This document shows positions 19,104 to 54,622 of a DNA stretch of 64,000 nt, in pieces. How positions within the stretch are numbered: the first letter of the stretch is position 1; each line of letters starts with the position of its first letter. A program made the position numbers and the translations under genes. Under the pieces are notes generated by a model. That model had not been told where the DNA came from, did not search any database, and was given only the letters and a program-made list of their open reading frames with translations. The stretch is from Porphyra umbilicalis (lineage: Eukaryota > Rhodophyta > Bangiophyceae > Bangiales > Bangiaceae): assembly GCA_002049455.2 (NCBI GenBank), contig KV918784.1, forward strand, positions 1 through 64,000, given 5' to 3'.

Positions 19104-19160
19104 TGAGGACAGGTTGCTCTCAAAGTTCCCTGGCCTTTAGGACAGGGTGCTCTCAAAGTG
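19104..19160. repeat. Short direct duplication at the array's leading edge
   Basis: GAGGACAGGTTGCTCTCAAAG and TAGGACAGGGTGCTCTCAAAG are repeated about 34 bp apart, the second being the leader of the 681-bp repeat. Confidence 0.6.
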
Positions 19161-21203
19161 TAGTGATGCACACATATACTTAGATCAAGGGACTTGCTCT
19201 CCGTTTCAGAGGTGGCAGTCTGCATTCGTGTCCTCAGGGATCTGAGGGCGTGTCAGTGTGGAAAAGGTCGCGATGACGCTAAAAGCGAATAGAGTTACAT
19301 GGCTGAGAAGGACTGTCCTGCAACCGAGGTCACAGGGCCCGGACGGCCACTGCCCCCCTGCCCCCCTCCATCGCCCCGAGTTGCACCCAGAAACCGCGCG
19401 CAGCGACATCCGGGGTTCGACGCGCCCACGATGACCCGCGGGCGATCGTGCCTCCGCGCCGGCTTCTGTTGCGGCGGCTCGTCGGCGGTTTCTGACGCCA
19501 TCGAGCGGCGTGGTTAGAGTCGCCCCGTCGCGCGCGGTCGGTCCCATCCGCGCGCCTGTGCGCCGTGCCGACCGCCCCGTCCGCCGTGCGCAGATGTGCT
19601 GCGCGGCGGAGTGACGGCCCCTCCCGTGGGTGTCGCGCGACGCCGGCGGGCCGCCGCCGCTGCGATGGCGGCGGCGGCACCCCTCTCCCTGCCTCACGCG
19701 CCCCCCGCCACTGCAACGTGGCTGTACGCGCCCCCGTGCGCGCTCGCGGCTATGGAGCTGGCCGGCGTGTCCGGTGTCGATGCGTCGCCGAGCGCGCCAC
19801 CGCCATGAAGGCCAGGGTCTGGCACGCACGTGCCTGGAATGTAGTGATGCACACATATACTTAGATCAAGGGACTTGCTCTCCGTTTCAGAGGTGGCAGT
19901 CTGCATTCGTGTCCTCAGGGATCTGAGGGCGTGTCAGTGTGGAAAAGGTCGCGATGACGCTAAAAGCGAATAGAGTTACATGGCTGAGAAGGACTGTCCT
20001 GCAACCGAGGTCACAGGGCCCGGACGGCCACTGCCCCCCTGCCCCCCTCCATCGCCCCGAGTTGCACCCAGAAACCGCGCGCAGCGACATCCGGGGTTCG
20101 ACGCGCCCACGATGACCCGCGGGCGATCGTGCCTCCGCGCCGGCTTCTGTTGCGGCGGCTCGTCGGCGGTTTCTGACGCCATCGAGCGGCGTGGTTAGAG
20201 GCGCCCCGTCGCGCGCGGTCGGTCCCATCCGCCCGCCTGTGCGCCGTGCCGACCGCCCCGTCCGCCGTGCGCAGATGTGCTGCGCGGCGGAGTGACGGCC
20301 CCTCCCGTGGGTGTCGCGCGACGCCGGCGGGCCGCCGCCGCTGCGATGGCGGCGGCGGCACCCCTCTCCCTGCCTCACGCGCCCCCCGCCACTGCAACGT
20401 GGCTGTACGCGCCCCCGTGCGCGCTCGCGGCTATGGAGCTGGCCGGCGTGTCCGGTGTCGATGCGTCGCCGAGCGCGCCACCGCCATGAAGGCCAGGGTC
20501 TGGCACGCACGTGCCTGGAATGTAGTGATGCACACATATACTTAGATCAAGGGACTTGCTCTCCGTTTCAGAGGTGGCAGTCTGCATTCGTGTCCTCAGG
20601 GATGTGAGGGCGTGTCAGTGTTGGAAGGGTCGCGATGACAATAAAACGAATGGAATTACGTGGCTGAGAAGGACTGTCCTGCCACAGGGGTCACTGGACC
20701 CGGACGGCGCCTGCCCCCGTGCCCCCTCTACCGCCCCGAGTTGCGCGTGGTGACCGCGCGCAGCGACTTCCGGGGCTTGACGCGCCCACGATGACCCGTG
20801 GGTGATCGTGCCTGCGCGCCGTCTTCTGTTGCGGCGGCGCGTCGGCGGTTGCTGACGCCATCTAGCGGCGCGGTTACAGACGCCTCGTCGCGCGCCGATC
20901 AGTCCCACCCGCCCGCCCGTGCGCCGTGTCGGCCGCCCTGCCCGCCTTGCGTAGGTGCGCTGCGCGACGGAGTGACGGCCTCGCCCGTGGGCGCCGCGCG
21001 ACGCCGGCGTGGGCCGCCGCCGCTGCGGTGGCGGAGGCGGCACCCCTTTCCCCACCCGACGCCCCCCCCACCACTGCAACGTGGCTGTACGTGCCCCCGT
21101 GCGCGCTCGCGGCTATGGAGCCGGCCGGCGTGCCCGGTGTCAATGCGTCGCCGAGCGCGCCACCGCCCTGAAGGCCAGGGTATTGCACGCACGTGCCTGG
21201 AAT
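19124..21203 (+). repeat. 681-bp tandem array, three units
   Basis: Units start at TAGTGATGCACACATATACT: 19161, 19842 and 20523. Units 1 and 2 are almost identical; unit 3 is clearly diverged. A leader TTCCCTGGCCTTTAGGACAG (from about 19124) precedes unit 1. The array ends at TGCCTGGAA (about 21203). Each unit ends with GGCACGCACGTGCC, a small hairpin. GC-rich open frames of over 200 codons cross each unit but carry no motif. A single inverted copy with the same leader is at 43957-44667. Confidence 0.92.
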
Positions 21204-21462
21204 TTCATACCGCCACACAGTGTGATCATCGACACGGGACGTGTGACGCCTTGCACGCGCGCCACTGGCGGAAAAGCCAAATTGGTCGATGAGCCTGGCC
21301 CCCCGACGGGGGGGGCCAGTGAAGGCCCTGGAGAGCTCTCCGGTGTCATGCGTTGCCGTGTGTGATGGAGCACCCAAAATATATTGAGCACAGAAGTGGC
21401 TTTGAGACTTTTTGCTGGGACACGTCACTCAAATTAAGCCGCGCCTGCAAGAAACCAGGAAC

Positions 21463-26018: not shown

Positions 26019-26933
26019 ATGCCATTTTGGGCCACCGACGCTTCCAGGGCGCTTGTTGCCGCCGGTGGATTACGCACGAAGACACTGGTCGTGCCCATTC
26101 TTGAGGGCAATGAGTGGTGCGCGCTCGTCATTCTGGGATTTCCTGCGGCTCTCACCAGCCACATGCTTGAAGCCAGGAGGTGCTGCACGGGTACGCAGCA
26201 GCGCGCAACGCAGCCAGCTCTCCTCAGCATACTCGCTGACCCGGCGTCTCGGGGCGCGGGTCTCCGTAGCCAGTCAGTGCGGTGCCTGCAGGATGTTGTT
26301 ACGGTTGCGTCGTGCCTCGCGAACGGGCTGCCCACGACAACGGCGTCTTTGCAGTCGCCAGGGCATGTTGTTCGGACGCTGCTCACCCCCATTGACCTTG
26401 TTGATGGGGTTTGGGAAATGGATCTCCTTTTGACTGGCCCCTCGATGCTGGCGCATGTCTTCTTTCTACTATCCGCTGCAGAAGAGCACAATGTCTCTCT
26501 CATGCACGAAGGAAGGGAGGAATGGGATGGTGTGTTGACCGCAAGGGGTAGGCGGGGGAACACGCGCGGCCTTCTTCTTGCTCATCGCCACGGGCCTGCA
26601 TCGTTAATCTCAGTGGAAGATAGGGGACGACGAGTGCACAATGCAAACATTGCTGAGTCTGTCGAAGCGTCGGGCAATCACAGCCGTGACGGCCACGGAC
26701 ACGGCTCTGTTGGCTTGCGCGGGAGGAGCTTCTCCCGCGGGAGTGGTGGTTCGTATCATGAGCGGCTACAACGCGCCGCTGACGCCAATATAGACTCTGA
26801 CAACAACAGCGCTGGGCCGCTGGCGGACCACTCCGTGGCGAGTTGCTCTCCTCGTGTGGCCATGACGCGTGGCAAGCCAGACAGTTCCGCACAGGTGGTG
26901 AGACAGTCAATCGGTCAAGCACGCCTCCTATGA
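26019..26933 (+). CDS. Unidentified ORF, possibly transposon-associated (weak Ulp1-like layout)
   Basis: A 304-residue frame from the ATG at 26019. The N-terminal part (TKTLVVPILEGNEWCALVI, later LLSILADPASRG) has the spacing of a Ulp1/C48 protease core (vP-HW-L-vi ... DS). The catalytic His position reads Glu, and no clear Cys box is seen, so the resemblance is weak. The C-terminal third is Ser/Arg/Gly-rich. It lies just upstream of, and on the same strand as, the JmjC gene, so it may belong to the same large element; Ulp1 domains are known cargo of plant DNA transposons. It could equally be unrelated. Confidence 0.3.
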   Translation: MPFWATDASRALVAAGGLRTKTLVVPILEGNEWCALVILGFPAALTSHMLEARRCCTGTQQRATQPALLSILADPASRGAGLRSQSVRCLQDVVTVASCLANGLPTTTASLQSPGHVVRTLLTPIDLVDGVWEMDLLLTGPSMLAHVFFLLSAAEEHNVSLMHEGREEWDGVLTARGRRGNTRGLLLAHRHGPASLISVEDRGRRVHNANIAESVEASGNHSRDGHGHGSVGLRGRSFSRGSGGSYHERLQRAADANIDSDNNSAGPLADHSVASCSPRVAMTRGKPDSSAQVVRQSIGQARLL

Positions 26934-27113
26934 GCAGGGGAGAGTACGTTGGAGCCTTGTTTCGCGCGGCTGACGCGTCCAAGATACTCGCCCCACGGGT
27001 GGGGCGCTTGCAAGCCGCTGTGGACAACGCTGCCGAACGAAACTTGAGCAACCAGGCGGCGCACCTTCAACCCACAGACGACAAAGTCGCTGGCGCGCCC
27101 CGGCCGAGTAGAC

Positions 27114-29419
27114 GTGGCTCATCATCGTATGCAGCACGTTCGCAGACGCCGCCGACACGCCGAGCTCGCCTTGGGGTGGCGGCCATCTGCTAGACGCAGC
27201 CCCCGACGCTGTCAGGCGCGGCCGGACAGCTACAGCAGAACGGATAAAGTTTTGGGCGCTCCGCAGCACGAACAAGATGTCCATCGCGGTCGTGGAGGCA
27301 CCGCAAAAGAAGGCAGGGGAGGTGGCAGGATTGGTTTAAACGCTCCTGCACCAGCTCGCCCACCTGACAGTGTGCCACGCGCAGAGCGGCATTCTGCAGG
27401 TGGCATGTTGTCGCTCCCTGCAGGAAGCAGCGCGCAGCAAAAGCGTGTCGGGAAAGGTGGCAACGTCCGTGATGAGGGTGGGGCTCGAGCGGAAGTGGCA
27501 CCAGTGGTAGGTCTCGAAGGAGGCGGCGGGGGCAATGCAGATGGAGGCTGTCGCCGCACAGTGCACGTGCAGATGCGCGTCGGGCGTCACGAACGGCGCG
27601 CCAGAGCTGCGACAGCCGCGGCGGGTGCTGCGGCCGTGGAGGTGGCCGATGAAGCGAAGACGGCAGCTGATGCGACGGCGCGCATGGACGGGCCAACACA
27701 GCAATGCGTGGCTGGCTCGGCTCCCATCATTCACGTGGACGACTTGCCGCGCGACGGCCTTCCGTACTTATTTCGTAAGCACTCTCGGCAAGTGGAAGAA
27801 TTTGGAGCTGTAATGTTTCTTGTAAGTTCATTAATCCGGCCGCAATTGAGCTCCGTCCCAAAACTCGTTACGGTACAAGTTCAACACCAAACTTTCCCCA
27901 TGATCCCAACTGTGGTGAGCAAAGTTCAACGCCACGCCGATGCATCCGGCTTGCATGAGCAATGCAATGGCGATGCGGATGCCTTTGCGGTCAATTTACC
28001 CGATTGCGCCAAGCGAGAGGTGTCAAGTACTAGCCACGATGCCAGCTGCAAGGCGAGTGCCGCCGGGCTGCTCATGCAGTTCTTGACTTTGGAGAAGAGC
28101 GCGTCCTGCTCAGCGTGAACGACCAGTCGGTGTTTCCAGTGCACCCTGCTGATCAATTTCAGCGCGCAGCGGCAGCCGGGTCAGGCTGTCTGCAGCGCCG
28201 TTCGTCAAGGTCAACATTCCTTATCGGAACAGCACAGTTCCTTCCAGGAGTGATGGGCTCGGTAGAAGCGCCGGGGATCCCGAAGCTGCGCCGAATGGAA
28301 CGTGTCGGTCCCCTAGAGATCGCATGGTCTGTCCTTGAACGATCAATTGCGTCGGAATGTCTCGCTGCTTATCCACCGCTGACGGCATGACGACCAATAT
28401 GCTCTACAAGAGGACACTTTGGTCAATAATTCCTCTTCACATGGAGGACAGCAACCTGCTTTCTATGTCCCCTCTCCACGACGGAGCCACAAGACTCTGG
28501 TGGGTAACTCCTCTGAACCAGGTCTGCAACATGTTCGACGTGCTGCTCCAGTGCCTGCACCCACTCGTGCTCACTGTCGTCGGGCGGAATATCCGCAATT
28601 TCTTGGCAACGAAGCGTGCAAACTGTTCACCGCAAGTCTTTCTAGACAACGGCGTGAAGATGTCGCTGGTGCATCAGGAAGTCGGCGCCTATGTCTTGAC
28701 AGCCGCAGGTACCCCACACATGAGCCTCAACCTCGGCGCCAACGTAGCGTCGGCCGTCAATTACACGTGTTTGGCATGGTTTGGGCGCGCTGTTGAATAC
28801 ATGGAAAGCTTATTTGGAGCTTGGGTACGTCCCCTTTTCATTCGAGAAGCTCCTGGTACTCTCGATCGATCTGCTTGCTGCTGCAATGTGGTGGTTTGGT
28901 AGTGCAAGCTGAATTGCAGCCTGCGACCCTGCGCTTTTTGTCCGCGATTTCAACGTGCTCATCGCGCACCTGGAGAGGTACTTGCTCGAGAACGACCGCT
29001 TTGTCAGCGGACAAGGGGCAGGCTGCTAGACGACGGCAATCGATAGCGTCAGCCCGGAGTGGAAGGCCTTTTTGGCGGCGGACACGGTCCGGGAGGCCGA
29101 TGTCAGTGACGCACTGCGCGTGGACCTCTCTGGAGATGGGTTCACGTGTTCAACGCGCTACGCTGTCTACTGGCTGTCTGTAGAAGTCTGCTTGTCGTGC
29201 ATATCGTTCTTTGGAGGCGCTCCAGACGAGGCGCCTCTGTGCTGTTGGCGCTGCACCGAGAGCACGTATCGCTGCTGGCTCGTCATACAGGAGGAGGGCA
29301 AGCCCGACCAGCCTGTGGACGGTTTGCACAAGCCCATGGTGTTGTGGCGGCACTCCACCTCACAGGTGAGAGATCTGGTCGCCAAGTTGCGCCGCGTGCT
29401 GAAGACTGTCCGCCATTGA
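27114..29419 (+). pseudogene. JmjC plus C5HC2-type zinc-finger protein (histone-demethylase-like), transposon-borne, broken
   Basis: A 2-oxoglutarate/Fe(II) dioxygenase of the JmjC class. An early segment (DGLPYLFRKHSRQVEEFGAV) ends at a textbook donor CTT|GTAAGT (27822). A later frame gives WSVLERSIASECLAAYPP, then, one base out of frame, DGMTTNMLYKRTLWS. The JmjC core follows: PLHMEDSNLLSM (Fe ligands H and E), LHDGATRLWWVTP, HQEVGAYVL and AGTPHMSLNLG (second Fe His). The 2-oxoglutarate Lys position is Arg. A final exon (about 28920-29419) carries a cysteine cluster: CSTR/CxxC, CLSC, CCWRC and C, resembling the C5HC2 finger that follows JmjC in KDM5-type enzymes. TAG at 29028-29030 (GAG in the 49982 copy) and the frame break make it a pseudogene as read. 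It is convergent with the transposase at 29576. Confidence 0.7.
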
Positions 29420-32400
29420 CGTTTGCACGTCGCACGCATATTTCTTTCTCAGTTTCCCTTTTTTCTGTTGCTCTTCGTTAGAGCTTTCTGCTTTCGCGGG
29501 TCTTTCACAGCTCACTATCATTGCTGTTGCTCATTATGATGTATATGCCCCATGCTTTTATTCCCTCATGACCTCTCAGAGGGAAGACCTGCTTGACGAA
29601 CATGCCTCCCCACGCTTGAACGGAAAGCCCGACTTCTTCTGAAACAAAAAAAACTTTGACTGGCTCGGCAGGACCAGTGCGACCTGCTTCACGTGCTGTG
29701 CAACAAGTAAAACAAGCTCATTGGGCTCCTCTAGCACTACTTCATTGGGTTTACCCGTACCGCTGGCTGATTGGCCAGCATGCCGCACCCACCGTTGGCA
29801 GAAGAGCTTAACGACACTTTCCACGGTTGCAATGTTTTGCACCAGAAAGTGATTCATGAAAATGCTCGGCTCGACAACTGCCCCGTTGCGGACAACAACG
29901 CGTGTACGGGAGGAACGTTCGAGCACACCAACCGTGCTTCCCCGTTTGAGCCTGAGACGGCCACCAAAGCGCGTCATCCACCAAAACTGCACGAAATCCC
30001 CGGGCTTCGCGAGTGTCGGTGGGCACTAGAAGCCTACAGACTTTGCATCCACTCTTCTTGCGGACGACCCATCCGCTGTCTGCCGGACGCGGCGGCACCG
30101 AACGGGCCCCTTTCATGTGATGCTGCACCATCTTCAAGTGTGACCCGTCTCTATTGTTGAGCCACTCGGCCGGAACGCCATTGGCCGCTGCATCTCTCAC
30201 AAACTTTGCGAGCACGTCAACCTCTCTCCACCGCAGCATGGAGAACGCGGCTGGATCTTTGTCATTGCTGAGAAGAAGTTCTCGCTTGGAGTGCTGATGG
30301 AACTTCTCAAATAAATGCTCGCACAGTGCAGAACTCAGCTGTACGATCGGCAGCGTGCGATACAGCAGCTCAAGTAATCTGTGGACAAAAGGTCTGTCCC
30401 ACTTGCCTGAGTGAGTCGCTAGTGCGCCAATGTCGCTCATGAGGGTACGTTCGAGACTCTGCAGTTCAGATACATTGGGCCTCGAGCAGACTGCCTCCTC
30501 TCCATCGGCGTCCCGTGTAGGCCTATGTAACAGCGTGTTGACAAAGCCCCTCAAAGATGACAGCGCCACTAACGTGCTAAGATTTTCTGGCGCAGCCGTA
30601 GCTCTGAAAACGATCCCATCCAGAACAGTAGGCGCGATGTTCAGGAGCACGACATAGTCGGCCATTGAAAACGTAGTGCCACCCACCTTTTCGGCTCAAA
30701 AGCGATCGAGACGGTGTTGGAGGGCACGTGCGTCGCAGCTGCTCGCATACGCTCCAGGAACAGATCACTCTGGGCGACTGTGAGGTACGTAAACGTCCAT
30801 TCCAGAAGCCGGGGAGCAAGTTCATACAGGAGGAGATGTGATGGGGCTGATAAAACGTGCTCGTGAACATCGAACGACCCGGGACCTCGAGCGCCAACAA
30901 GCAGTCTCGCAAAATTGTCCACATTTCTTGGTATGCCATTCGCGTGTAGAGCAACCTTCTTGGCCGCATCGGACAATATCAAGGAGCGATCGATGGTTGA
31001 CTTAATCACTTCTGTACGCTCTTGAATGCGAGCGTACCTCACGTCCCGCACATCAAAAACTTGAGCGCTATTCATCGCGCGGTCCTGTCGCACACTGCTT
31101 GTCTTCTGGCTGACAATTTCGCAGCTTGTACAGTGTTCCACCCCGGGCGCTCCGATATTGTTGGAAAACTTTGCAGCCATGGGAAAGTCAAAAATGCCGA
31201 TGCACGGATACACGTGCACGGTTACATCCTGCTTGGAAAAGGCATCATGCAGAACGACTCCTGTTGTCGAAAGCATCAGGAGATCCTCCACAATTCGCAG
31301 CACGAGTGGCCCAGCGTCCGCCCCAGGTGGAAGGTAACACAGAGGGCGAACAGAATACTGTCTGTCCTTCAGACAAAAAGAGGTCTACGACCCGTAGTGC
31401 CCCTCTTTGTCTCCTCCGCGACGCTTTTAATTTCCGTACTCGTCCGCAAGCCATGTAGCGTAGACGACGTGTGGGTCCTTCGTCGGCATAAGTTCAGCGA
31501 CTTCTATCGGAGACAAACTCAGCGTGATTTGCGTAGCCCAGCAGAGTTCTAGCCAGCTGCCTGCCACAGCGTCGGTTTCGGGAATCACGCACTGGATGTA
31601 CACTGCACCATCCCGAATATAGCGTATGGTGCACGAACCATCGCCAGAAATGCAGGCCTTTATTGAAGGCGGTGACCGAGAAGTGGAGCACAGCGACAAG
31701 GAGGCAGTGAAGTCTCCCACCCGAAGGGACGTCGGTATGGCGTACATCGCTTCTGACAGAGAAACGTCGCCGTCGTCAGCAGTACCTGTGCTCAATTGAT
31801 GCGCCCCCATGTGTTCGACTTCCGGCATGCATAGCTTCGTGGTGCACCCGACTTTTTGCTAGTCGCCGTTGAGGCGGAAATCACTACGAAAGCTAAAGTG
31901 CGACGGATCCCGAGCCGCCAGGGTCTGAAAACATTCTTCCGGTCTTTCTGCGGAGCCGAGCGCTGAGTCCCCGGCGTCATGAAACACAGCTGCAGTGACA
32001 GGGTCTGCAAAGGCACTGACGACGTGAGCAGAAAAAGGTATGTAGCCGGTTCGAGCGTCCGGCAGCTTTCGCATTGTCTTTCCCTTCCCGACTGGCAGGG
32101 TCCTGCTTGTTCGCTGCCAGCGCACGGGAGCTGCCCGCTCCAACAGAGCGGCGCGGATCTTACCCAGACGCCATCTCGATGGCCACTGCTCGGTCGCGCA
32201 CAGGGCGTTCTCCTCCTCACGCATGCTGTCGCCCTGCCGCACCGTGAGGCGGCCCTTGCCAAAGAGATAGCCGTAGCAATGTAGCTCTCGACTAGATTTG
32301 AAAATGCCTTCTACGTCTTCTTCGTCGGTCAGGCCGCACCAGTCAATGTTTGAGCTGCTGGAAGAGACCATCTCCATGTTCACCGCGTCACCCTCATCTG

Positions 32401-33692
32401 AGTTTGACAGAGGTTTGGCAGCGGGGCTGTCAGCAGGATACCCCACCGATTCCCGCCGACCGCTCTGTACAGCCTCTGGCGCCTGAATTGTAGCTGTTGG
32501 TGACGTGCGCGAAGATTGGGCGCCGCTTTGGCGGGCAGGCCCAATAGGGTGCGAGGCAGCGTCCTCTGGCCGGAGTGAGCGCGGAACAGGGAGCATGTCA
32601 TCCTCCTCGAATCGGAAGTACGAGACCGCTCGGGGCCCGCGCTTACGACGCTTGCGGCTCGTCATGACTGAAGCTCAGTGCAGAGCTACATTTGTGACGT
32701 GCCGCAGCTCCTCTGCTATCCCGCGAGTAGACGAGGCGTTCGAGGTGACTTCGGTCCCCGCTGCGCCGCGTGCACCTCGCAGCGAGCTGCAGGAAAGAGA
32801 GGTAGTACCCGCTTGAAGTAGATTCCGTGCCCAAAGAACTGTGGCGCCCGTGCTCGAGCACCTATTCCATGCCCCGAATGCAGCAGCGCACTTGACCTGG
32901 GGACCTTCGTCTACATACGCGCAACGAGCATCCCTTGGACCGCCCTGGTGTTCCCCTCTCAGAAACTCTGTTGGATTTCCCAGACAGGAGACAGGGTCTG
33001 TTCTGGGAATTGCCTGGCGGACAAACCAAAAACGTGGTCAACAACGATCCGCAGGACAGTCCATCAAACAATTCTGGAGATGAACGCCATCCAACTCTGT
33101 CAGCAGCCCAGTAATATTGCGTGATTATTTCTTCCATACTATTCCACAAGCAACTTGAGGATCATATGAAGACAGCCTCAAAGACAGCCAGAATGACTCA
33201 ACATTATCAACTCACACCCGTTTCAGGTTAATCTTCGAGGCCTCCCGCTTGGCTGGTCAAACTCGGGCCCGATCAGTGTTTCCGAATCGACGACAAAACC
33301 CAGTGCAGTGGTATGGTCGGCCGATGGAAAAATGCGAGCCTCCTGCGAACCAGCGCCATATTATCCGGTTGGACTGATATGTGGCCAACCAGTAGCTCGG
33401 TTCGCAGATCTGGTTCGCGACGGTGGTGGGATGACCGGTTTTCCCATATCTCCGCGCAGAACTGGCAAATATGCCACGTTTAACGAATAATACGCACAAG
33501 CGGTTCGCATCCGACGTTGTTGGGTGTGCTCGAACTGGAAGTCTCGATCACGTACCGTTTTTTGGTGCGGAGACGCGCTCTCAGCGCTCGGCGCCCAGCC
33601 CCCGGGCCACAGGGCGGTCGCCCGTGCGCCGCGCGTGGCCGCCCCAGTGGCCGCCCGCCACGCCGCTTGGTCTCACGCGAGAGTGGCAGCCG
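28978..33692. mobile_element. CACTA/tnp2-like DNA transposon, copy A (segment shared with copy B)
   Basis: This segment is repeated in the same orientation at 49982-54622. Homology starts at GTACTTGCTCGAGAACGACC and ends at GAGTGGCAGCCG. It covers the cysteine-rich exon of the JmjC gene (plus strand), the short 3' intergenic region and the whole transposase (minus strand). The full element of copy A probably extends left to include the JmjC core and perhaps the frame at 26019. Terminal CACTA repeats were not found at the shared borders, so these may be breakpoints rather than true ends. Confidence 0.85.
29576..32665 (-). pseudogene. tnp2/CACTA-like transposase, copy A (frameshifted)
   Basis: Reading from the ATG at 32665: a basic start (MTSRKRRKRGPR), an acidic Ser-rich region and a charged domain up to TAG 31859. 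It continues in frame with copy B as KVGCTTKLCM...VEHMGAH. Then comes the tnp2-like core: VVLHDAFSKQDVTVHVYPC, IGIFDFPMAAKFSN, HCTSC, then FDVHEHVLSAPSHLLLYEL. After this, FVHRLLELLYRTLP and ALCEHLFEKFHQHSKRELLL resemble the domain that follows tnp2 in CACTA proteins. A one-base loss near 30690 shifts the frame relative to copy B. Between about 31304 and 31430 the coding frame changes again, so an intron or indel is likely there. The C-terminal part runs to 29576. Assignment to the tnp2 class rests on motif order, not on a search. Confidence 0.65.
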
Positions 33693-43790: not shown

Positions 43791-43956
43791 GTGGGGCGCA
43801 TCCTGATTTGCTGTACTGACGCCCGTACCCACAAATTTCAAATTGCCTCCGAACGCGTCCAGTACAGGCTGAAATGGCATGTACTGGGCCATATTCGACC
43901 CCCCTCCACATTCGACCCCCCTCCACACTGCAAAACTTCCAATATAGTATATTCCA

Positions 43957-44667
43957 GGCACGTGCGTGCCATACCCTGGCCTTCATGGCGGTGGCGCGCT
44001 CGGCGACGCATCGACACCGGACACGCCGGCCAGCTCCATAGCCGCGAGCGCGCACGGGGGCGCGTACAGCCACGTTACAGTGGCGGGGGGCGCGTGAGGC
44101 AGGGAGAGGGGTGCCGCCGCCGCCATCGCAGCGGCGGCGGCCCGCCGGCGTCGCGCGACACCCACGGGAGGGGCCGTCACTCCGCCGCGCAGCACATCTG
44201 CGCACGGCGGACGGGGCGGTCGGCACGGCGCACAGGCGGGCGGGTGGGACCGACCGCGCGCGACGGGGCGCCTCTAACCACGCCGCTCGATGGCGTCAGA
44301 AACCGCCGACGAGCCGCCGCAACAGAAGCCGGCGCGCAGGCACGATCGCCCGCGGGTCATCGTGGGCGCGTCGAACCCCGGATGTCGCTGCGCGCGGATT
44401 CTGGGTGCAACTCGGGGCGATGGGGGGGGGTAGGGGGGCAGGGGCCGTCCAGGCCCTGTGACCTCGGTTGCAGGACAATCCTTCTCAGCCATGTAACTCT
44501 ATTCGCTTTTAGCGTCATCGCGACCTTTTCCACACTAACACGCCCTCAGATCACTGAGGACACGAATGCAGACTGCCACCTCTGAAACGGAGAACAAGTC
44601 CCTTGATCTAAGTATATGTGTGCATCACTACACTTTGAGAGCACCCTGTCCTGAAGGCCAGGGAATA
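43957..44667 (-). repeat. Inverted single copy of the 681-bp repeat
   Basis: This matches units 1 and 2 of the 19124 array almost base for base on the opposite strand. It includes the same leader (TTCCCTGGCCTTCAGGACAG on the minus strand), showing the mobile or duplicated unit is leader plus one unit. Confidence 0.92.
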
Positions 44668-46417: not shown

Positions 46418-47404
46418 CTACCAAGTGCGCGACGAGCGCAGGGGGGGGCGGGAAGGCGGGGCAGCGGCCACCCCGCCGTAGGCGGGGGGGCGCCTGCCGC
46501 CCCACCGTCGGCAAGAAGGGGGGGGGGGGCCCGTAGGCGCCACGAGCAGCACCTCGTCAGCCGGAAGCAGCGCGTTGCGCGCCACCGCGAGCGCAATGTT
46601 GTGCGCGACGCCTCCGACGGTCGGCGGATGCACGACGCCGGGGTTGCTCGTGCCGGGCACGGCGGCGGCCGCTGCGCCGCCGTCGCCGCCAGCCGTTGCG
46701 TACACGTCGTGCGCAATGGAGCTCACGACGACCAGGCGTGGGGCGGGGGTGTCCCCGCCTCCGCCCGCCGGCGGCGGTGGCGTCGCTGCCGGCAGCCGCA
46801 GCGGCCGCGCCATGGCCGCTGCCGGCAGCGGACGAGGGTCACCCCTTCCCCCCCCCTCACCATGCCGCGCGACGGCACACGTCACGGCCAGCCGCTCCGG
46901 CACCCCCTCATTTTGCGCCATGAGCGCAATCGCTGCCGTCGCGCTCACCGTCGTGGCGCCGTCGTCGCCCGCGGCGGCGGCGGCGGCAATGCCCCGCCGC
47001 CCGACTTTGCAGGTGCGCGGGCCGTGCACGGCGAGGTGAACGAGGCCCGGCGCGTCGACTTTGACGGTGGGGGTGCCGCCGAAGAGCACAATCGTGGCGA
47101 GGACGGCGCCTGCCGCGCGGACGGCCGCCTCCAAGGCGGTGGCGGTGGCGAGATTGGTCGGGTGCGGCATGCCGTGGCAGATGAGAAGGGATTCGAGGGC
47201 GACGACCGGTCCGCCGCGGGCGAGGGTGGCCGCCACTTCGGGCGAGATGAGGATGTGGGGGAGGGGGGGAGGGGGACATGGTGCCGTCCCTGGTGAGGGC
47301 GAAGGAGAAGGGGGGGGGGGTTGGTGCAACTGCCGACGAACAATGGTGTGGGCGCGGCTAGGGCGCGACCAACGCCGAGCACAAGGGTGGGCGGGCACAC
47401 ACAT
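46418..47404 (-). pseudogene. Pseudouridine-5'-phosphate glycosidase - PfkB kinase fusion, fragment
   Basis: PsuG splits pseudouridine monophosphate into uracil and ribose-5-phosphate, and fused PfkB kinases make its substrate from pseudouridine. From ATG 47404 an Arg-rich, targeting-like N-terminus precedes the PsuG start: ISPEVAATLARGGPVVALES, CHGMPHPTNLATA, AVLATIVLFGGTPTVKVDAP and KVGRRG...GATTVSATAAIALMAQ. The rest of PsuG (the GGIGGVHR region onward) is missing. After a Pro/Gly linker the beginning of a PfkB kinase follows: RLVVVSSIAHDVY, SNPGVVHPPTVGGVAHNIAL. It ends abruptly near a G run at 46518-46530 and the KDZ end at 46409. It is a truncated, internally deleted copy between two KDZ 3' ends. 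Confidence 0.75.
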
Positions 47405-47545
47405 ACAGGTGCCTTCACCCGGAAAGGCGGCCGAGAATGGCGACGAGCAGGTGAGCAGCTCACCGCCGCAGCGTCATGGCGAGGCGCACGCGGCGGCGCG
47501 GCGGCGGCGGATGAGGCAGCGGGCGGCGGCGGCGCGGCCAACCTC

Positions 47546-47645: not shown

Positions 47646-47761
47646 ACATGGAGATGAAGACGAGTATTTCGTCGCTTCTTATTATTTACATACGTCCGTG
47701 TTTTCCGTGCCACTTTCCCCTCACAGTCACGCACGCACCACCACACGAGCTGTCACACGCT

Positions 47762-49363
47762 TTAGAGAGGTACAGACAACAGAGAGAAGCTCCTCTCCTC
47801 TTCAACACAGCCAAGAATAAACTCCGCTTTCCCACAATGCATGGTGTGGATGAAGTTTTGCCACCCGCGCAGAAATCGAAAGTGCTGTTCGGCCACCGAC
47901 GAGTTGAAGCGACTTTCAACGCCATTATGCCGGACCGGCTCCGGGTGGTATGCCATTTGACACGAGGACCGGCAGTGCAAGCCACACCTTTGGTGTGTTC
48001 GCTAGTGGAAGCGCAGCACGACCAGAGCAACACCTTCCACCGCAGCCGCAGCGCCGGGATCCGCAGCACCGCCCTCAATGTGCTGGAGGATACGACAGGC
48101 CATGTCATAGGCGACGGCCGATAACGGGTGTGGAAGACAGCGGAGCGCCTTGGCAGTAGATGCCAGAACAGTGGCGGGCCCCTCCCCCCTTTCCAAGAAC
48201 TCAGAGAAGATGACAATTCCGCAAGGCCGACTGAACATAAAATACCTCTGCACATGTTGCCGGTCCCACACAACGAGCTTTCCAGGGCCGGGGCCACCGC
48301 CAAAAGCCCCAAACTGATCCCCATCCTCTTGGTCGACGGCGTCAGCCACGTCGTTGGCGACCACGCTCCCGTTCCGTCGAGTAGCAGACGAAACTGCCCT
48401 CCGTTTATGGGCCTCCTGCAGGGGGATGTGCTCCTGGCATACCAGCCATTGCTGCTCACCAAGAGAGTTGTCGCCCGCGGGCGCGTGCAAGGGCCCCTTG
48501 TGGACGATAGGCGTACCACTGCGCAGTTGGACTCTTGTGCGACGTGGGTGCGGCAAAAGCGACGACTTGGTGCTGGCGGTGATAAGCATTTGTGCACTCC
48601 GCACACCAGTCCACCCATGGCCACCCCGTCCCCGACGAGAAAGTCGACGCCATCTGGCAACCGGCACATTCCACACTGGTGGTGCGCGTGGAATTTTTCG
48701 TGCTGTTGCCATACGGATACCATCCGTCGGGTTAGGTTGACCAGGGAGTCCCTCAAGCTGCTGCGTACCTCCCATGTAGGCTCTGTCGCCGTCCACACCA
48801 GCTCCTGCTGCCCCCGACGCTTCTCAAACAAAAAAGCTGCAAAAAAAAACGATGCAGCTCCAGATGAGGTCGTTCAAGCCGACACCAGCTGTAGTCCCCC
48901 TAAATTCGACCATGCCGGTGAGGAGTGCAGCGAAGGAGCCGGAGCCGTGGCGGAAGTCGACTTGGCCGCTCGTGGAAGAGCCTGAGAGGGTAGCCGTAAG
49001 GAACCAAGAGCGGGCAAGAGACGCCTTGACCAAGTGGTGCGTCGAGATGCGCACCAGCCCATCCTGCAAGAAGTAACCCCGGACATGTGTTACATCCGCC
49101 ATTTCCTCGTTGGTGACGAGGATGGCCGACCGTATCCACCGATGCACCTCTGAGTTGTAAAACGCCTTGGTATACGTAGTGACTCCAAACCCGAAAAGCG
49201 TTCTGCACTTCGGGCAATAGCGCGACACGGTGCGGGCGTCCACGACGGCCAACTCTGAGTGCAGTCGGATGCTCGTGAGCGGCCGGTCCCGCAAAATCTG
49301 GTAACCGCATCTTGGGTGTGAGCAGGCGATTGAGTGCGGGGCCAGAACCTGGAGAGCTTCCAT
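47762..49363 (-). pseudogene. KDZ-superfamily transposon protein with CxC5/CxC6-type cysteine clusters, frameshifted
   Basis: From ATG 49363: a CxC5-like cluster (SHPRCGYQIL...SRYCPKCRTLFGFG), then a CxC6-like cluster (HHQCGMC...FLVGDGVAMG, GLVCGVHKCL, RRFCRTHVAQESNCAVV). The catalytic region then moves to another frame at about 48530: CGIVIFSEFLERGEG and LSAVAYDMACRILQHIEG, with the Asp of the YDMAC motif. It moves again to a third frame near 47980 for VESRFNSSVAEQHFRFLRGW, where Glu is the likely third catalytic residue. Cysteine clusters followed by this DDE layout define Kyakuja-Dileera-Zisupton-related elements. At least two frameshifts make it a pseudogene. Its 3' end (47662-47826) recurs at 46249. 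Confidence 0.7.
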
Positions 49364-49981
49364 GGTACGTCGGATTGGGGATGCAGAGGTGCGGTGTCGG
49401 CTCCACAGCAGAGAGTTTGTAAACAGTGATCACCAAGAGTAGAAGAGGGGCAAGGCGCAAGAAACCTGTGTCGGAGGGTCTGCGCTGCAGGTCAAATTGG
49501 CCCTCCCTCTACCATGTCCCCCTAGTGCCTGTCAAATTAGTCCATTGTACGCGTCAGTTGCCTATCCACCGGTACCTCTCGGCACCACTGCATGTCTGGC
49601 ATGGGTCTGCCATGGCCTGCTGCGGCAGGGCGTCGACTCGTGATTTGGCAACCAACGGCTGCTTCACGGCACCGCAACGCGAAATCAAGGGACACGCCTT
49701 CGCCGTAAGCTGTGAACGGACACGCTCGCCACTCTCCTCGCGGGCTGCAGTATTTCCCCACGGACTTGGTCAAGTCGTGCAAAATCGGTGCCTCGATCCA
49801 TCTTTAATTGGAACCTTGTGTCTCTCGGTCCACTGATGTGCAGGTCGGAGGTCCACCTCGATTTAGCCACCTGAGGGTCAACCCACTTGAGTGTTAAGTC
49901 ACGTGACAGAACACACCGAAATAGTAGAGACTGTGGCTGCTGTCCACCGGCCCAGAGGTTTCAGCACATAAGCCACAGAGA
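49364..49981. other. No gene supported
   Basis: Likely the 5' part of the KDZ element and the junction with transposon copy B. A minus frame starting MRLAPLLLLVITVYKL (49460) may be leader or exon sequence. Confidence 0.35.
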
Positions 49982-49986
49982 CGTAC

Positions 49987-50424
49987 TTGCTCGAGAACGA
50001 CCGCTTTGTCAGCGGAAAAGGGGCAGGCTGCGAGACGACGGCCATCGATAGCGTCAGCCCGGAGTTGAAGGTCTTCTTGGCGGCGGACACGGTCCGGGAG
50101 GCGGATGTCAGTGACGGACTGCGCGTGGCCCTCTCTGGAGATGGGTACACGTGTTCAACGTGCTACGCTGTCTACTGGCTGTCTGTAGTAGTCTGCCCGA
50201 CGTGCATATCGTTCTTTGGAGGCGCTCCAGACGAGGAGCCTCTGTGCTGCTGGCGCTGTGCCGAGAGCACGTATCGCTGCTGGCACGTCATACAGGAGGA
50301 GAGAAAGCCCAACCGGCCTGTGGACGGTTTGCACAAGCCCATGGTGTTTTTGCGCCACTCCACCTCACAGGTGAGAGATCTGGTCGCCAAGTTGCGCCGC
50401 CTGCTGAAGACTGTCCGCCATTGA
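49987..50424 (+). pseudogene. C5HC2-type cysteine-rich exon of the JmjC gene, copy B
   Basis: Copy B keeps an open frame (GAG where copy A has TAG). It shows the cysteine pattern better: YTCSTCYAVYWLSVVVCPTC, then LCCWRCAESTYRCW. The spacing resembles the zinc finger that follows JmjC in KDM5-type demethylases. It ends VAKLRRLLKTVRH. With the JmjC core missing upstream, it is a 5'-truncated remnant convergent with the transposase. Confidence 0.6.
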
Positions 50425-50700
50425 CTTTTGCACGTCGCAATCTTATTTCTTTCTCAGCTTCCCATTTTTCTGTTGCTCTTCGTTAGAGCTTTCTGCTTTT
50501 GCGGGTCTTTCACAGCTCACTATCATTGCTGTTGTTCATTATGATGTATATGCCCCATGCTTTTTTTCCCTCGCGATCTCTCATAGGGAAGACCTGCTTG
50601 ACGAACATTCCTACCCACACTTTAACGGAAAGCCCGACTTCTTCTGAAACAAAAAAATCTTTGACTGGCTCGGCAGGACCAGCGCGACCTGCTCGATGTG

Positions 50701-53595
50701 CTATGCAACAAGTATAACAAGCTCATTGGGCTCCTCTAGCACTACTTTATTGGGTTGACCCATACAGCTGGCTGCTTGGTCAGCAGGCCGCACCCACAGT
50801 TGGCAGACGCGCTGAACAACAACTTCCACGGTTGCAATGCCTCGCACAAGAAAGTGATCCATGAAAATGCTCGGCTCGTTAACTGCCCCGTTGCGGACAA
50901 CAACGCGCGTACGGGAGAAACGTTCGAGCACACCAACCGTGCTTCCCCGTTTGAGCCTGAGACGGCAACAAGAGCGCGCCATCCGCCAAATCTGCACGAC
51001 ATCCCCGGACTTCGCGAGGGTCTGTGGGCACTGGAAGCCTACAGACTTTGCATCCACCCTTCTTGCGGACGACCTATCCGCTGTCTACCGGACGCGGCGG
51101 CACCGAACGGGCCCCTGTCATGTGATGCTGCACCATCTTCAAGTGTGACCCGTCTCTATTGTTGAGCCACTCGGCCGGAACGCCACTGGCCGCTGCATCT
51201 CTTAGAAACCTTGCGAGCACGTCAACCTCTCTCCACCGCAGCATGGAGAACGCGGCTGGATCTTTGTCATTGCTGAGAAGAAGTTCTCGCTTGGAGTGCT
51301 GATGGAACTTCTCAAATAAATGCTCGCACAGTGCAGAACTCAGCTGTACGATCGGAAGCGTGCGATACAGCAGCTCAAGTAATCTGTGGACGACAGGTCT
51401 GTCGCACTTGCCTGAGTGAGTCGCTAGTATGTCTCCATCAGCGTCCCGTGTAGGCCTATAGAACAGTGTTTTGACAAAGCCCCTCAAAGATGACAGCGCC
51501 ACTAACGTGCTAAGATTTTCTGGCGCAGCCGTAGCTCTGAAAACGATCCCATCCAGAACAGTAGGCGCGATGTTCAGGAGCACGACATAGTTGGCCATTA
51601 AGAACGATGTGCCACCCATCTTTTCCGGCTCAAAGGCAATCGAGACGGTGTTTGAGGGCACGTGCGTCGCAGCTGCTCGCATACGCTCCAGGAACAGATC
51701 TCTCTGGGCGAATGAGAGGTACGTAAACGTCGAGTCCAGAAGCCGGGCAGCAAGTTCATACAGAAGGAGATGTGATGGGGCTGATAAAACGTGCTCGTGA
51801 ACATCGAACGACCCGGGACCTCGAGCGCCAGCAAGCAGTCTCGCAAAAGTGCCCACATTTCTTGATATGCCATTCGCGTTTAGAGCAACCTTCTTAGCCG
51901 CATCGGACGACATCAAGGTGCGGTCGATGGTTGACTCAATCACTTCTGTACGCTCTTGAATGCGAGCGTACCTCACGTCCCGCACATCAAAAACTTGAGC
52001 GCTATTCATCGCGCGGTCCTGTCGCACACTGCTTGTCTTCTGGCTGACAATGTCGCAGCTTGTACAGTGTTGCACACCGGGCGCTCCAATAGTGTTGGAA
52101 CACTTTGCAGCCATGGGAAAGTCAAAAAGGCCGATGCACAGATACACGTGCACGGTTACATTCTGCTTGGAAAAGGCATCATGAACAACGACTCCTGTTG
52201 TCGAAAGCATCAGGAGATCCTCCACAATTTGCAGCACGAGTGGCCGAGCGTCCGCCCCAGGTGGAAGGTAACACAGAGGGCGAACAGAATACTGTCTATC
52301 CTTCAGAAAAAAGAAGGTGTACGACCCGTAGCGCCCCTCTATGTCTCCTCTGCGACGCTGTAAAACTCCGTACTCGTCCGCAAATCATGTAGCGTAGACG
52401 ACGTGTGGGTCCTTCGTTGACATTTTTTCAGCGACTTCTATCGGAGACGAACTCAGCGTGATCGCCGTAGCCGAGCAGAGATCTAGCCAGCTGCCTGCCA
52501 CAGCGTCGGTTTCGGGAATCACGCACTGGATGTACACTGCACCATCCCGAATATAGCGTATGGTGCACGAACCATCGCTAGAAATGCAGGCCTTTATTGA
52601 AGGCGGTGAGCGAGAAGTGGAGCACAGCGACAAGGAGGCAGTGAAGTCTCCCACCCGAACAGACGTCGGTATGGCTTACATCGCTTCTGACAGAGTAACT
52701 TCGCCGACAGCAGCGATACCTGTGCTCACTAGATGCGCCTCCATGTGTTCGACTGCCGACATACACAGCTTCATGGTGCACCCGACTTTGTACAAGTCGC
52801 CGTTGAGGCGGAAACCACTACGAAAGTTGAAGTGCGACGGATCCCGAGCCGCCAGGGTCTGAAATCTGCCGGTCTTTCTGCGGAGCCGAGCGCTGAGTCC
52901 CCGGCGTCATGAAACAGAGCTGCAGTGACAGGGTCTGCAAAGTCCCTGACAACGTGAGCAGAAAAAGGGATGTAGCCGGTTCGAACGTCCGGCAGCTTTC
53001 GCATTGTCTTTCCCTTCCCGACAGGCAGGGTCCTGCTTGTTCGCTGCCAGCACACGGGAGCTGCCCGCTCCAACAGAGCGGCGCGAATCTTGCCCAGACG
53101 CCATCTCGATGGCCACTGCTCGGTCTCGCACAGGGCGTTCTCCACCTCACGCATCCTGTCGTACTGCCGCACCGTGAGGTGGCCCTTGCCAAAGAGATAG
53201 CCGTAGCAATATAGCTCTTGACTAGATTTGAAAATGCCTTCTACGTCTTCTTCGTCGGTCAGGCCGCACCAGTCAATGTCTGAGCTGCTGGAAGAGACCA
53301 TCTCCATGTTCACCGCGTCACCCTCATCTGAGTTTGACAGAGGTTTGGCAGCGGGGCTGTCAGCAGGATACCCCGCCGATTCCCGCCGACCGCTCTGTAC
53401 AGCCTCTGGCGCCTGAATTCCAGCCGCCGGTGACGTGCGCGAGGATTGGGCGCCACTTTGGCGGGCAGACCCAATAGGGTGCGAGGCAGCGTTCTCTGGG
53501 CGGAGTGAGCGCGGAACAGGGAGCATGTCATCCTCTTCGAATCGGAAGTACGAGGCCGCTCGGGGCCCGTGCTTACGACGTTTGCGGCTCGTCAT
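50701..53595 (-). pseudogene. tnp2/CACTA-like transposase, copy B
   Basis: This has the same gene as copy A. The core from 52237 to 51074 is a single frame (VVVHDAFSKQNVTVHVYLC, FPMAAKCSN, HCTSC, ALCEHLFEKFHQHSKREL). It stops at TAG 51074-51076, where copy A has TGG (W). Relative to copy A it lacks 24 residues after RDADG. The N-terminal part from ATG 53595 is frameshifted at about 52865 and has TAA at the position of TAC in copy A (about 52675). Comparing the two copies reconstructs which breaks are private to each. Confidence 0.65.
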
Positions 53596-54622
53596 GACTG
53601 AAGCTCAGTGCAGAGCTACATATGTGACGTGCCGCAGCTCCTCTGCTATTCCGCGAGGGGACGAGGCGTTCGAGGTGACTTCGGTCCCCGCTGTGCCGCG
53701 TGCACCTCGCAGCGAGCTGCAGGAAAGAGAGGTAGTACCCGCTTGAAGTAGACCCCGTGCCCAAAGAATGGTGGCGCCCGTGCTCGAGCACCTATTCCAT
53801 GCCCCGAATGCAGCAGCGCACTTGACCTGGGGACCTTCGTCAACATACGCGCAACGAGCATCCCTTGGATCGCCCTGGTGTTCCCCTCTCAGAAAATCTG
53901 TTGCATTTCCCCAGACTGGAGACAGGGTCTGTTCTGGGAATTGCCTGGCGGACAAACCAAAAACGTGATCAACAACGATCCGCAGGACAGTCCATCAAAC
54001 AATTCTGGACATGAACGCCATCCAACTCTGTCAGCAGCCCAGTAATATTGCGTGATTATTTCTTCTACACTGTTCCACAAGCAACTTAAGGATCATCTGA
54101 AAACAGCCTCAAAGACAGCCAGGATGACTCAACATTATCAACTCACACCCGTTTCAGGTTAATCTTCGAGGCCTCCCGCTTGGCTGTTCAAATTCGGGCC
54201 CGATCAGTTTTTACGAATCGACGACAAAACCCAGTGCAGTGGTATGGTCGGCCGATGGAAAAATGCGAACCTCCTGCGAAGCAGCGCCATATTATCCGGT
54301 TGGACTGATATGTGGCCAACCAGTAGCTCGGTTCGCAGATCTGGTTCGCGACGGTGGTGGGATGACCGGTTTTCCCATATCTCTGCGCAGAACTGGCAAA
54401 TATGCCACATTTAACGAATAATACGCACAAGCGGTTCGCATCCGACGTTGTTGGGTGTGCTCGAACTGGAAGTCTCGATCACGTACCGTTTTTTGGTGCG
54501 GAGACGCGCTCTCAGCGCTCGGAGCTCAGCCACCGGGCCGCGAGCGGTCGCCCGTGCGCCGCGCGTGGCCGCCCCAGTGGCCGCCCGCCACGCCGCTTGG
54601 CCGCACGCCAGAGTGGCAGCCG

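Follow-up and report, generated by a model that had tools for sequence, protein, structure and literature searches.

Does the JmjC histone-demethylase-like gene that lies beside a tnp2-type transposase in the red alga Porphyra umbilicalis belong to the transposon, and what might it do there? The stretch of 64,000 nucleotides analyzed here (the window; contig KV918784.1, positions 1 to 64,000, assembly GCA_002049455.2) holds two copies of the arrangement, called A (26037..33305) and B (49978..54236). Both are dead members of a large CACTA-like (CMC-type) DNA transposon family. In this family the JmjC gene belongs to the element itself, was inherited together with the transposase through diversification and keeps its Fe(II)/2-oxoglutarate residues under purifying selection. 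Its product probably acts on host chromatin in favor of the element.

Pairing and co-inheritance of the JmjC gene and the transposase

We searched 83.8 Mb of genome sequence in 665 contigs, the window lying on contig C24. The JmjC frame gave 108 matches, the cysteine-rich (Cys) segment of copy B 101 and its transposase at least 175 (96 of 250 candidates scored). For pairing, 103 of the listed transposase matches were used, leaving aside about 48 later short C-terminal matches (query ~320-435) at loci already counted, together with a Pfam tnp2 search in which 150 of 176 candidates were scored. After merging, 106 JmjC loci remained. The Cys segment follows downstream on the same strand at 96 of them (median distance 340 bp), and a convergent tnp2 match, among the Pfam and copy B transposase matches listed, lies within 6 kb at 85 (median 1.8 kb). 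Random placement of equal numbers gave on average 0.68 pairings and never more than 4 in 300 trials. The preliminary description of this DNA had proposed that gene and transposase travel together; this holds at 85 of 106 loci, although copy B itself has only the 3' end of the gene. Seen from the transposase, 80 of 94 merged relatives face a JmjC among the copy B matches listed, and three of the 14 others retain only the Cys segment (two on C24, one on C582). JmjC frames of at least 1,800 codons are present at 14 transposon loci, not counting the host locus C344 described below.

The two genes also diverged together. JmjC and transposase distances correlate with r = 0.95 over 22 loci, which are not all independent and were obtained from 30 Cys-segment loci minus 8 fragmentary or duplicate ones; none of 2,000 permutations reached this value. 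The ratio of nonsynonymous to synonymous substitutions (dN/dS) of the JmjC module ranges between 0.12-0.30 in 11 of 23 pairs, those with dS >0.26 (some saturated), and the HxE...H metal and 2-oxoglutarate-lysine positions are retained in 24-26 of 26 alignment rows; pairs and rows alike come from selected open-frame loci and are non-independent. From these sequence comparisons the gene appears to be preserved by selection in the active lineage while decaying in single copies. Among 5.8 billion proteins (jgi, ena, metaclust) we found few relatives, 35 of the JmjC module (8,000 candidates scored) and 14 of the transposase (7,994 scored). One JmjC match (P0011) and one transposase match (P0051) both give a longest contig of 12,285, which suggests that they are linked on one contig.

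Intact elements show how the genes are arranged. The C16 element, read whole apart from its left 2.7 kb, encodes a JmjC protein in one frame of 2,570 codons (270012-277721, + strand) and, tail to tail with it across a gap of about 200 bp, a transposase in one frame of 986 codons (277923-280880, - strand). JmjC frames of 2,570 codons (C391) and 2,504 codons (C27) are each accompanied by a 986-codon transposase. It had been proposed to ask if intact copies carry the JmjC frame opposite the transposase and inside the terminal repeats; they do so in C16, and in C27 and C391 as judged by ends and frame lengths. In the window's own family the answer is partial: C284 has 1,819 codons of uninterrupted JmjC frame and, convergent with it across a gap of about 190 bp, a transposase frame of 1,022 codons; its right end reads ...CCCAGTG, while its left end is outside the sequence reached.

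Comparison of the C16, C391, C27 and C20 copies defined the ends of the C16 family as CACTGCGTGG on the left and CTCGC(C/T)GTG on the right, forming a short imperfect terminal inverted repeat. The element measures 14,985 bp in C20 and 15,583 bp in C27, and the C16 termini are about 16 kb apart; the C12 ends lie 23 kb apart, so that C12 may hold an insertion. A 2-bp target duplication flanks six of the eight both-ended copies (C391 TG, C149 TC, C26 CA, C12 GC, C27 CA, C20 CT), compared to about 0.5 of 8 expected by chance, in a set that is not fully independent because C16 and C391 share their right flank. No duplication is seen for C101 (CG/TC) and C16 (AG/TG), and a 3-bp duplication for none of the eight. 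The assignment as CACTA-like is supported by the CAC..GTG ends and the tnp2 similarity, the target duplications being 2 bp instead of 3 bp. A survey of such elements gives 3 bp for EnSpm and 2-5 bp for the wider CMCT group (PMC12730594), which on its account places our elements outside strict EnSpm and within the wider range.

With up to 3 mismatches the left terminus has 105 genome matches versus 42 for a reversed control. Among the 100 of these 105 that were listed, it is found upstream and correctly oriented at at least 40 of the 106 JmjC loci, versus 2 and 3 in two controls. The right-terminus pattern has eight exact matches, which are the eight both-ended copies. A 164-bp tandem repeat is located close to the left end of the C16-family element. 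The near-identical C16 and C391 elements share their right flank (99.9%) and differ in their left flanks, a pattern of duplication, recombination or assembly effect. In the C27 element, at a distance of ~1.1-1.9 kb from its left end and on the strand opposite to the JmjC gene, we noticed an open frame of 272 codons with no Pfam match; it could represent a third element gene.

Several JmjC-linked transposases exceed the Transposase_21 cut-off of 28.6 bits (e.g. C206 37.6, C60 37.2 and C53 37.0), the C16 transposase staying below it at 26.6 bits. For the C(2)C motif, both intact transposases (C16, C284) contain CTSC. The H(3-4)H motif is present between the assumed D and E, which were placed by eye, in C16 and not in C284.

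The JmjC protein and its host relatives

Pfam recognizes JmjC in both full-length proteins (C16, E = 7.7e-16; C284, E = 5.4e-15). At E<=0.5 neither zf-C5HC2 nor JmjN was matched; C284 gave JmjC alone and C16 in addition a weak unrelated DUF7575 (0.25). In the predicted structure the overall fold of the catalytic module agrees with the KDM5/JMJ14 type (JmjN-JmjC-C5HC2), and the zinc segment of C16 reads C-x2-C-x10-C-x2-C-x15-C-x2-C-x8-H. As modeled, a dioxygenase module of the histone-demethylase type, with JmjN, JmjC and zinc finger, makes up the C-terminal ~600 residues. KDM4 and further JmjC families are absent from the 50 matches listed by VIA-align, which does not exclude them. By sequence the best matches are JMJ13, KDM4D and chain 2w2i, named 2-oxoglutarate oxygenase; JMJ13, the best match for C16, was crystallized with H3K27me3. 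KDM5 is an H3K4 demethylase. Since JMJ14, JMJ703 and KDM5 (H3K4) and JMJ13 (H3K27) share one module, the fold cannot pick the substrate.

The kinship to host genes was examined in an unrooted tree over 206 columns, with 19 sequences chosen from the retrieved transposon loci, 3 from the host and 6 with solved structures, an analysis against host KDM4/KDM5 genes that the preliminary description had called for. The 19 transposon rows are separated from all 9 host and PDB rows with 100% support. Host gene C30 groups with KDM4 (94) and C263 with KDM5/JMJ14 (95), while C344 stands between the canonical clades and the transposons. These three genes have the highest Pfam JmjC scores, and among the tnp2 matches listed none lies within 13 kb of them. 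Their best matches are KDM4A (C30, 249 bits), JARID1C (C263, 216 bits) and JMJ13 (C344, 117 bits). A recent capture of a host KDM4 or KDM5 gene was considered and is rejected by locus pairing, co-divergence and tree. Of the three, C344 (G000:C344:3200-6700, L094) alone aligns to the transposon proteins across the zinc segment (E = 4e-34), and none of the tnp2 matches listed is on its contig. As far as sequence can tell, it is the best candidate for either the donor gene or a domesticated transposon copy.

A further stretch of ~270 residues is conserved in the N-terminal parts of the C16 (L069:2822-3625, residues ~390-656) and C284 (L091:481-1341) proteins. By eye it looks like an Ulp1-type (C48) protease. 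Pfam assigned no family to it, the best hit being unrelated at E = 0.31, and an AlphaFold2 model from three sequences reached a predicted local distance difference test (pLDDT) score of 42, too poor for a fold search. An NCBIfam search matched nothing.

The copies in the window

Copy A is a 5'-truncated, pseudogenized element with the JmjC gene on the + and the transposase on the - strand, sharing 91-92% DNA identity with C284 over 26037-26604 and 26613-33305. Its JmjC remains (26037..29416, +) consist of seven tblastn pieces, which together correspond to C284 residues 602-1813. As described previously, a JmjC core is present: the frame at 28339..28899 (+) matches Pfam JmjC with E = 8.1e-12 and aligns to the other copies. 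By-eye reading finds the Fe-binding H, E and H all there, with R at the position equivalent to K269. The C5HC2-like zinc-binding C-terminal segment (29030..29416, +) corresponds by homology to residues 457-583 within the C-terminal segment of C284, and its assignment also rests on the Cys/His pattern seen in other copies. It had been taken for a cysteine exon. The segment is real, its counterpart in copy B being the query with 101 genome matches, but it is not an exon: because C284 has one uninterrupted JmjC frame of 1,819 codons and copy A seven pieces of it, the window pieces are parts of a broken single frame.

The transposase (29609..32665, -) remains in three tblastn pieces corresponding to C284 residues 1-1019, tail to tail with the JmjC gene as had been seen before. 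Its Pfam match (PF02992, 30641-31384, -; E = 1.1e-4, 21.9 bits) is under the curated 28.6, which relatives elsewhere exceed. The gap between the genes is about 190 bp and not ~155 bp. The right terminus of copy A, ...ACAAAACCCAGTG (inward CACTGGGTTTTGTCG), is located at 33293..33305, and homology with C284 stops exactly at ...GTG. The element therefore does not occupy 27114..33692, as first delimited, but extends from its truncation at 26037 to 33305, the last ~387 bp being flank. This flank (33306..33692) is common to A and B (54237-54622) and is found neither beside C284 nor beside a third copy (C24:~100 kb), where the element already stops at the position corresponding to 33255. A search for terminal inverted repeats between copy A and the 14.5 kb to its left gave nothing convincing; the left side is truncated and the true right end is 33305, not 33692.

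Copy B is the same element, truncated within the JmjC gene. It lacks the JmjC core and keeps of that gene solely the 3' end, the Cys segment at 49978-50421 (+); its transposase pieces lie at 51074-53604 (-). A and B align in two pieces at 93-94% DNA identity (28973-33692 versus 49978-54622), so the reported recurrence of the block at 49982-54622 stands as an alignment, with the element ending at 54236 and the rest belonging to the shared flank.

Just left of the truncation of copy B, 47686-49426 (-) contains cysteine clusters like those of KDZ transposases (CxC6, E = 3.8e-9, above cut-off; CxC5, E = 2.8e-4, below cut-off) and is likely, by its sequence, the remnant of a KDZ-type element. A domain similar to indigoidine synthase A at 46418-47470 (-; E = 3.9e-27) likely marks a host gene. 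Tandem repeats of ~683 bp with an inverted copy occupy 19126-21222 and 43948-44665, and similar repeats also lie outside C284, past its right end. The outermost ~683-bp unit adjoins a match to the left terminus, CACTGTGTGGCGGTATGAAA (3 mismatches), at 21222 on the - strand, which probably belongs to another subfamily of JmjC elements.

Putative role and known systems

We favor, with a probability of roughly 0.6, the reading that these are CACTA-like elements whose resident histone-demethylase-type gene strips repressive lysine-methyl marks from element copies and thereby aids the transposase. Autonomous members encode two convergent proteins, the tnp2-type transposase and the long JmjC-module protein. 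The latter would enter the nucleus and remove a repressive lysine-methyl mark at element copies, most likely on histone H3, which would let the transposase be expressed or reach the DNA. A JmjC eraser would be a fitting counter-weapon against transposon silencing by histone methylation, should the host rely on that. Where no DNA cytosine methyltransferase is detected, as in this host, it would be the histone-based equivalent of the TET/JBP enzymes of fungal transposons. The purifying selection, the retention of catalytic residues and the failure to detect a DNA methyltransferase are all consistent with an anti-silencing role.

As to the host, the DNA cytosine methyltransferase family PF00145 gave no genome match in a search whose control was positive in 10 of 14 genomes, all prokaryotes. 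Searches for TET/JBP (no matches) and Pre-SET were uninformative because their controls were positive nowhere. Chromodomains gave at least 148 genome matches (150 of 417 candidates scored), roughly twenty of which lie in frames of ~1,505-1,541 aa; this size suggests chromoviral retrotransposons, and the count is therefore not diagnostic. Chlorophyll a/b-binding proteins gave 10 genome matches, with the control positive in 1 of 14 genomes (a cyanobacterium), in keeping with an algal host.

Several observations count against the favored reading. The methyltransferase gene could have escaped detection if split by introns. The best fold matches, JMJ14 and JMJ703 (with H3K4 peptides), are H3K4 demethylases, and H3K4 demethylation usually represses genes. 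Eleven of the 23 dN/dS pairs, which are closer, range from 0.22-1.28 (one further pair being undefined), and the rows were chosen for open frames. The right-terminus pattern (16 bases, <=1 mismatch) has 12 matches versus 23 for the reversed control. Among the tnp2 matches listed, 17 of 106 JmjC loci have none within 13 kb, and at 4 it lies at a greater distance or in another arrangement; the three host genes are among these 21. Likewise 76 of at least 136 Pfam tnp2 loci have no convergent JmjC (60 do); the cargo is therefore not needed by all tnp2 elements here.

That a host JmjC gene came to lie beside a transposase by chance, or was captured as a functionless passenger, would agree with the broken window copies and the near-neutral dN/dS of some close copies. 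It is nevertheless highly improbable, being refuted by the same arrangement at 85 of 106 loci, the co-divergence (r = 0.95), the dN/dS of 0.12-0.30 in diverged pairs and the position of the JmjC gene inside the termini. A less remote alternative, still unlikely, is that the JmjC protein serves as a cofactor of transposition or targeting instead of an eraser: chromatin or subterminal repeats would be bound by the zinc finger and the long repeat region, and the target of the enzyme would be a partner other than histones, e.g. the transposase. Its N-terminal part is very long, with tandem repeats in C16 and a single substantial stretch alignable between C16 and C284 (22% identity), and the convergent pairing recalls the two-component CACTA system, TnpA/TnpD of maize Spm. 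Retention of the metal- and 2-oxoglutarate-binding residues in 24-26 of 26 rows however argues for catalysis, and the fold match spans the entire histone-demethylase module.

In another alternative the enzyme would erase activating H3K4 methylation like KDM5/JMJ14 and so damp its own or competing expression, as copy-number control or to hide from the host. The top fold matches and the JmjN-JmjC-C5HC2-like architecture point in this direction, but the sequence is not specifically KDM5-like (best matches JMJ13, KDM4D and 2w2i) and the tree places the transposon proteins outside both the KDM4 and KDM5 clades; we regard it as improbable, more so than a cofactor role. Returning to removal of repressive marks, a wider scenario, to which we give slightly less than even odds, is that of an undescribed, highly successful CACTA lineage which acquired the JmjC-zinc module once, before its subfamilies split, and owes its spread to stripping repressive histone methylation in a host lacking DNA methylation, with C344 as donor or domesticate.

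The elements would be of interest for several reasons. Transposon-borne erasers, as far as the surveyed accounts describe them, act on DNA methylation (TET/JBP); a JmjC gene kept across deep subfamily divergence would suggest that parasites match their eraser to the silencing mark of the host. With about 100 related loci, 14 of them having long open JmjC frames, this one genome would offer a natural set on which to test if selfish elements alter chromatin to their own advantage, and the family is a possible source of the host gene C344.

The closest known systems are fungal DNA transposons (Kyakuja, Dileera, Zisupton, EnSpm, Plavaka and others) carrying TET/JBP genes, for which an anti-silencing use is proposed (Kojima 2025, PMC12730594). 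According to that account they are mostly cut-and-paste elements, including EnSpm with CAC..GTG ends, and place the dioxygenase beside the transposase as here. Their enzyme, however, acts on 5-methylcytosine in fungal hosts, in contrast to a JmjC protein of histone-demethylase type in a photosynthetic host with no detected DNA methyltransferase; the term JmjC does not occur in the main text of that paper. Endogenized giant viruses of Amoebidium carry KDM4-like JmjC genes suggested to counter host chromatin silencing (PMC11244446). They are alike in that histone-demethylase-like JmjC genes have expanded on foreign DNA, yet as reported there they are KDM4-derived, multi-exon genes with the JmjC domain only, in viral insertions, whereas ours is linked to a transposase, has a single frame and a C-terminal zinc segment and falls outside the KDM4 clade. 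Phytophthora HarbingerS and MuDR elements, as cited in PMC12730594, are DNA transposons with an enzyme of histone lysine methylation as well, but their SET-domain methyltransferase is a writer and not an eraser, and their transposases belong to other superfamilies. VANC of Arabidopsis VANDAL elements, described as a sequence-specific anti-silencing protein (PMC5735166, PMC10398659), is also a transposon-encoded protein countering epigenetic silencing, presented in these accounts without mention of a dioxygenase domain. In the titles and abstract starts listed by searches of the open-licence PMC literature, with subscription papers and Repbase Reports outside this scope, no JmjC gene in a DNA transposon is described. 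A DNA transposon with an epigenetic eraser as cargo is already known; within the literature searched, JmjC is a new class of such cargo.

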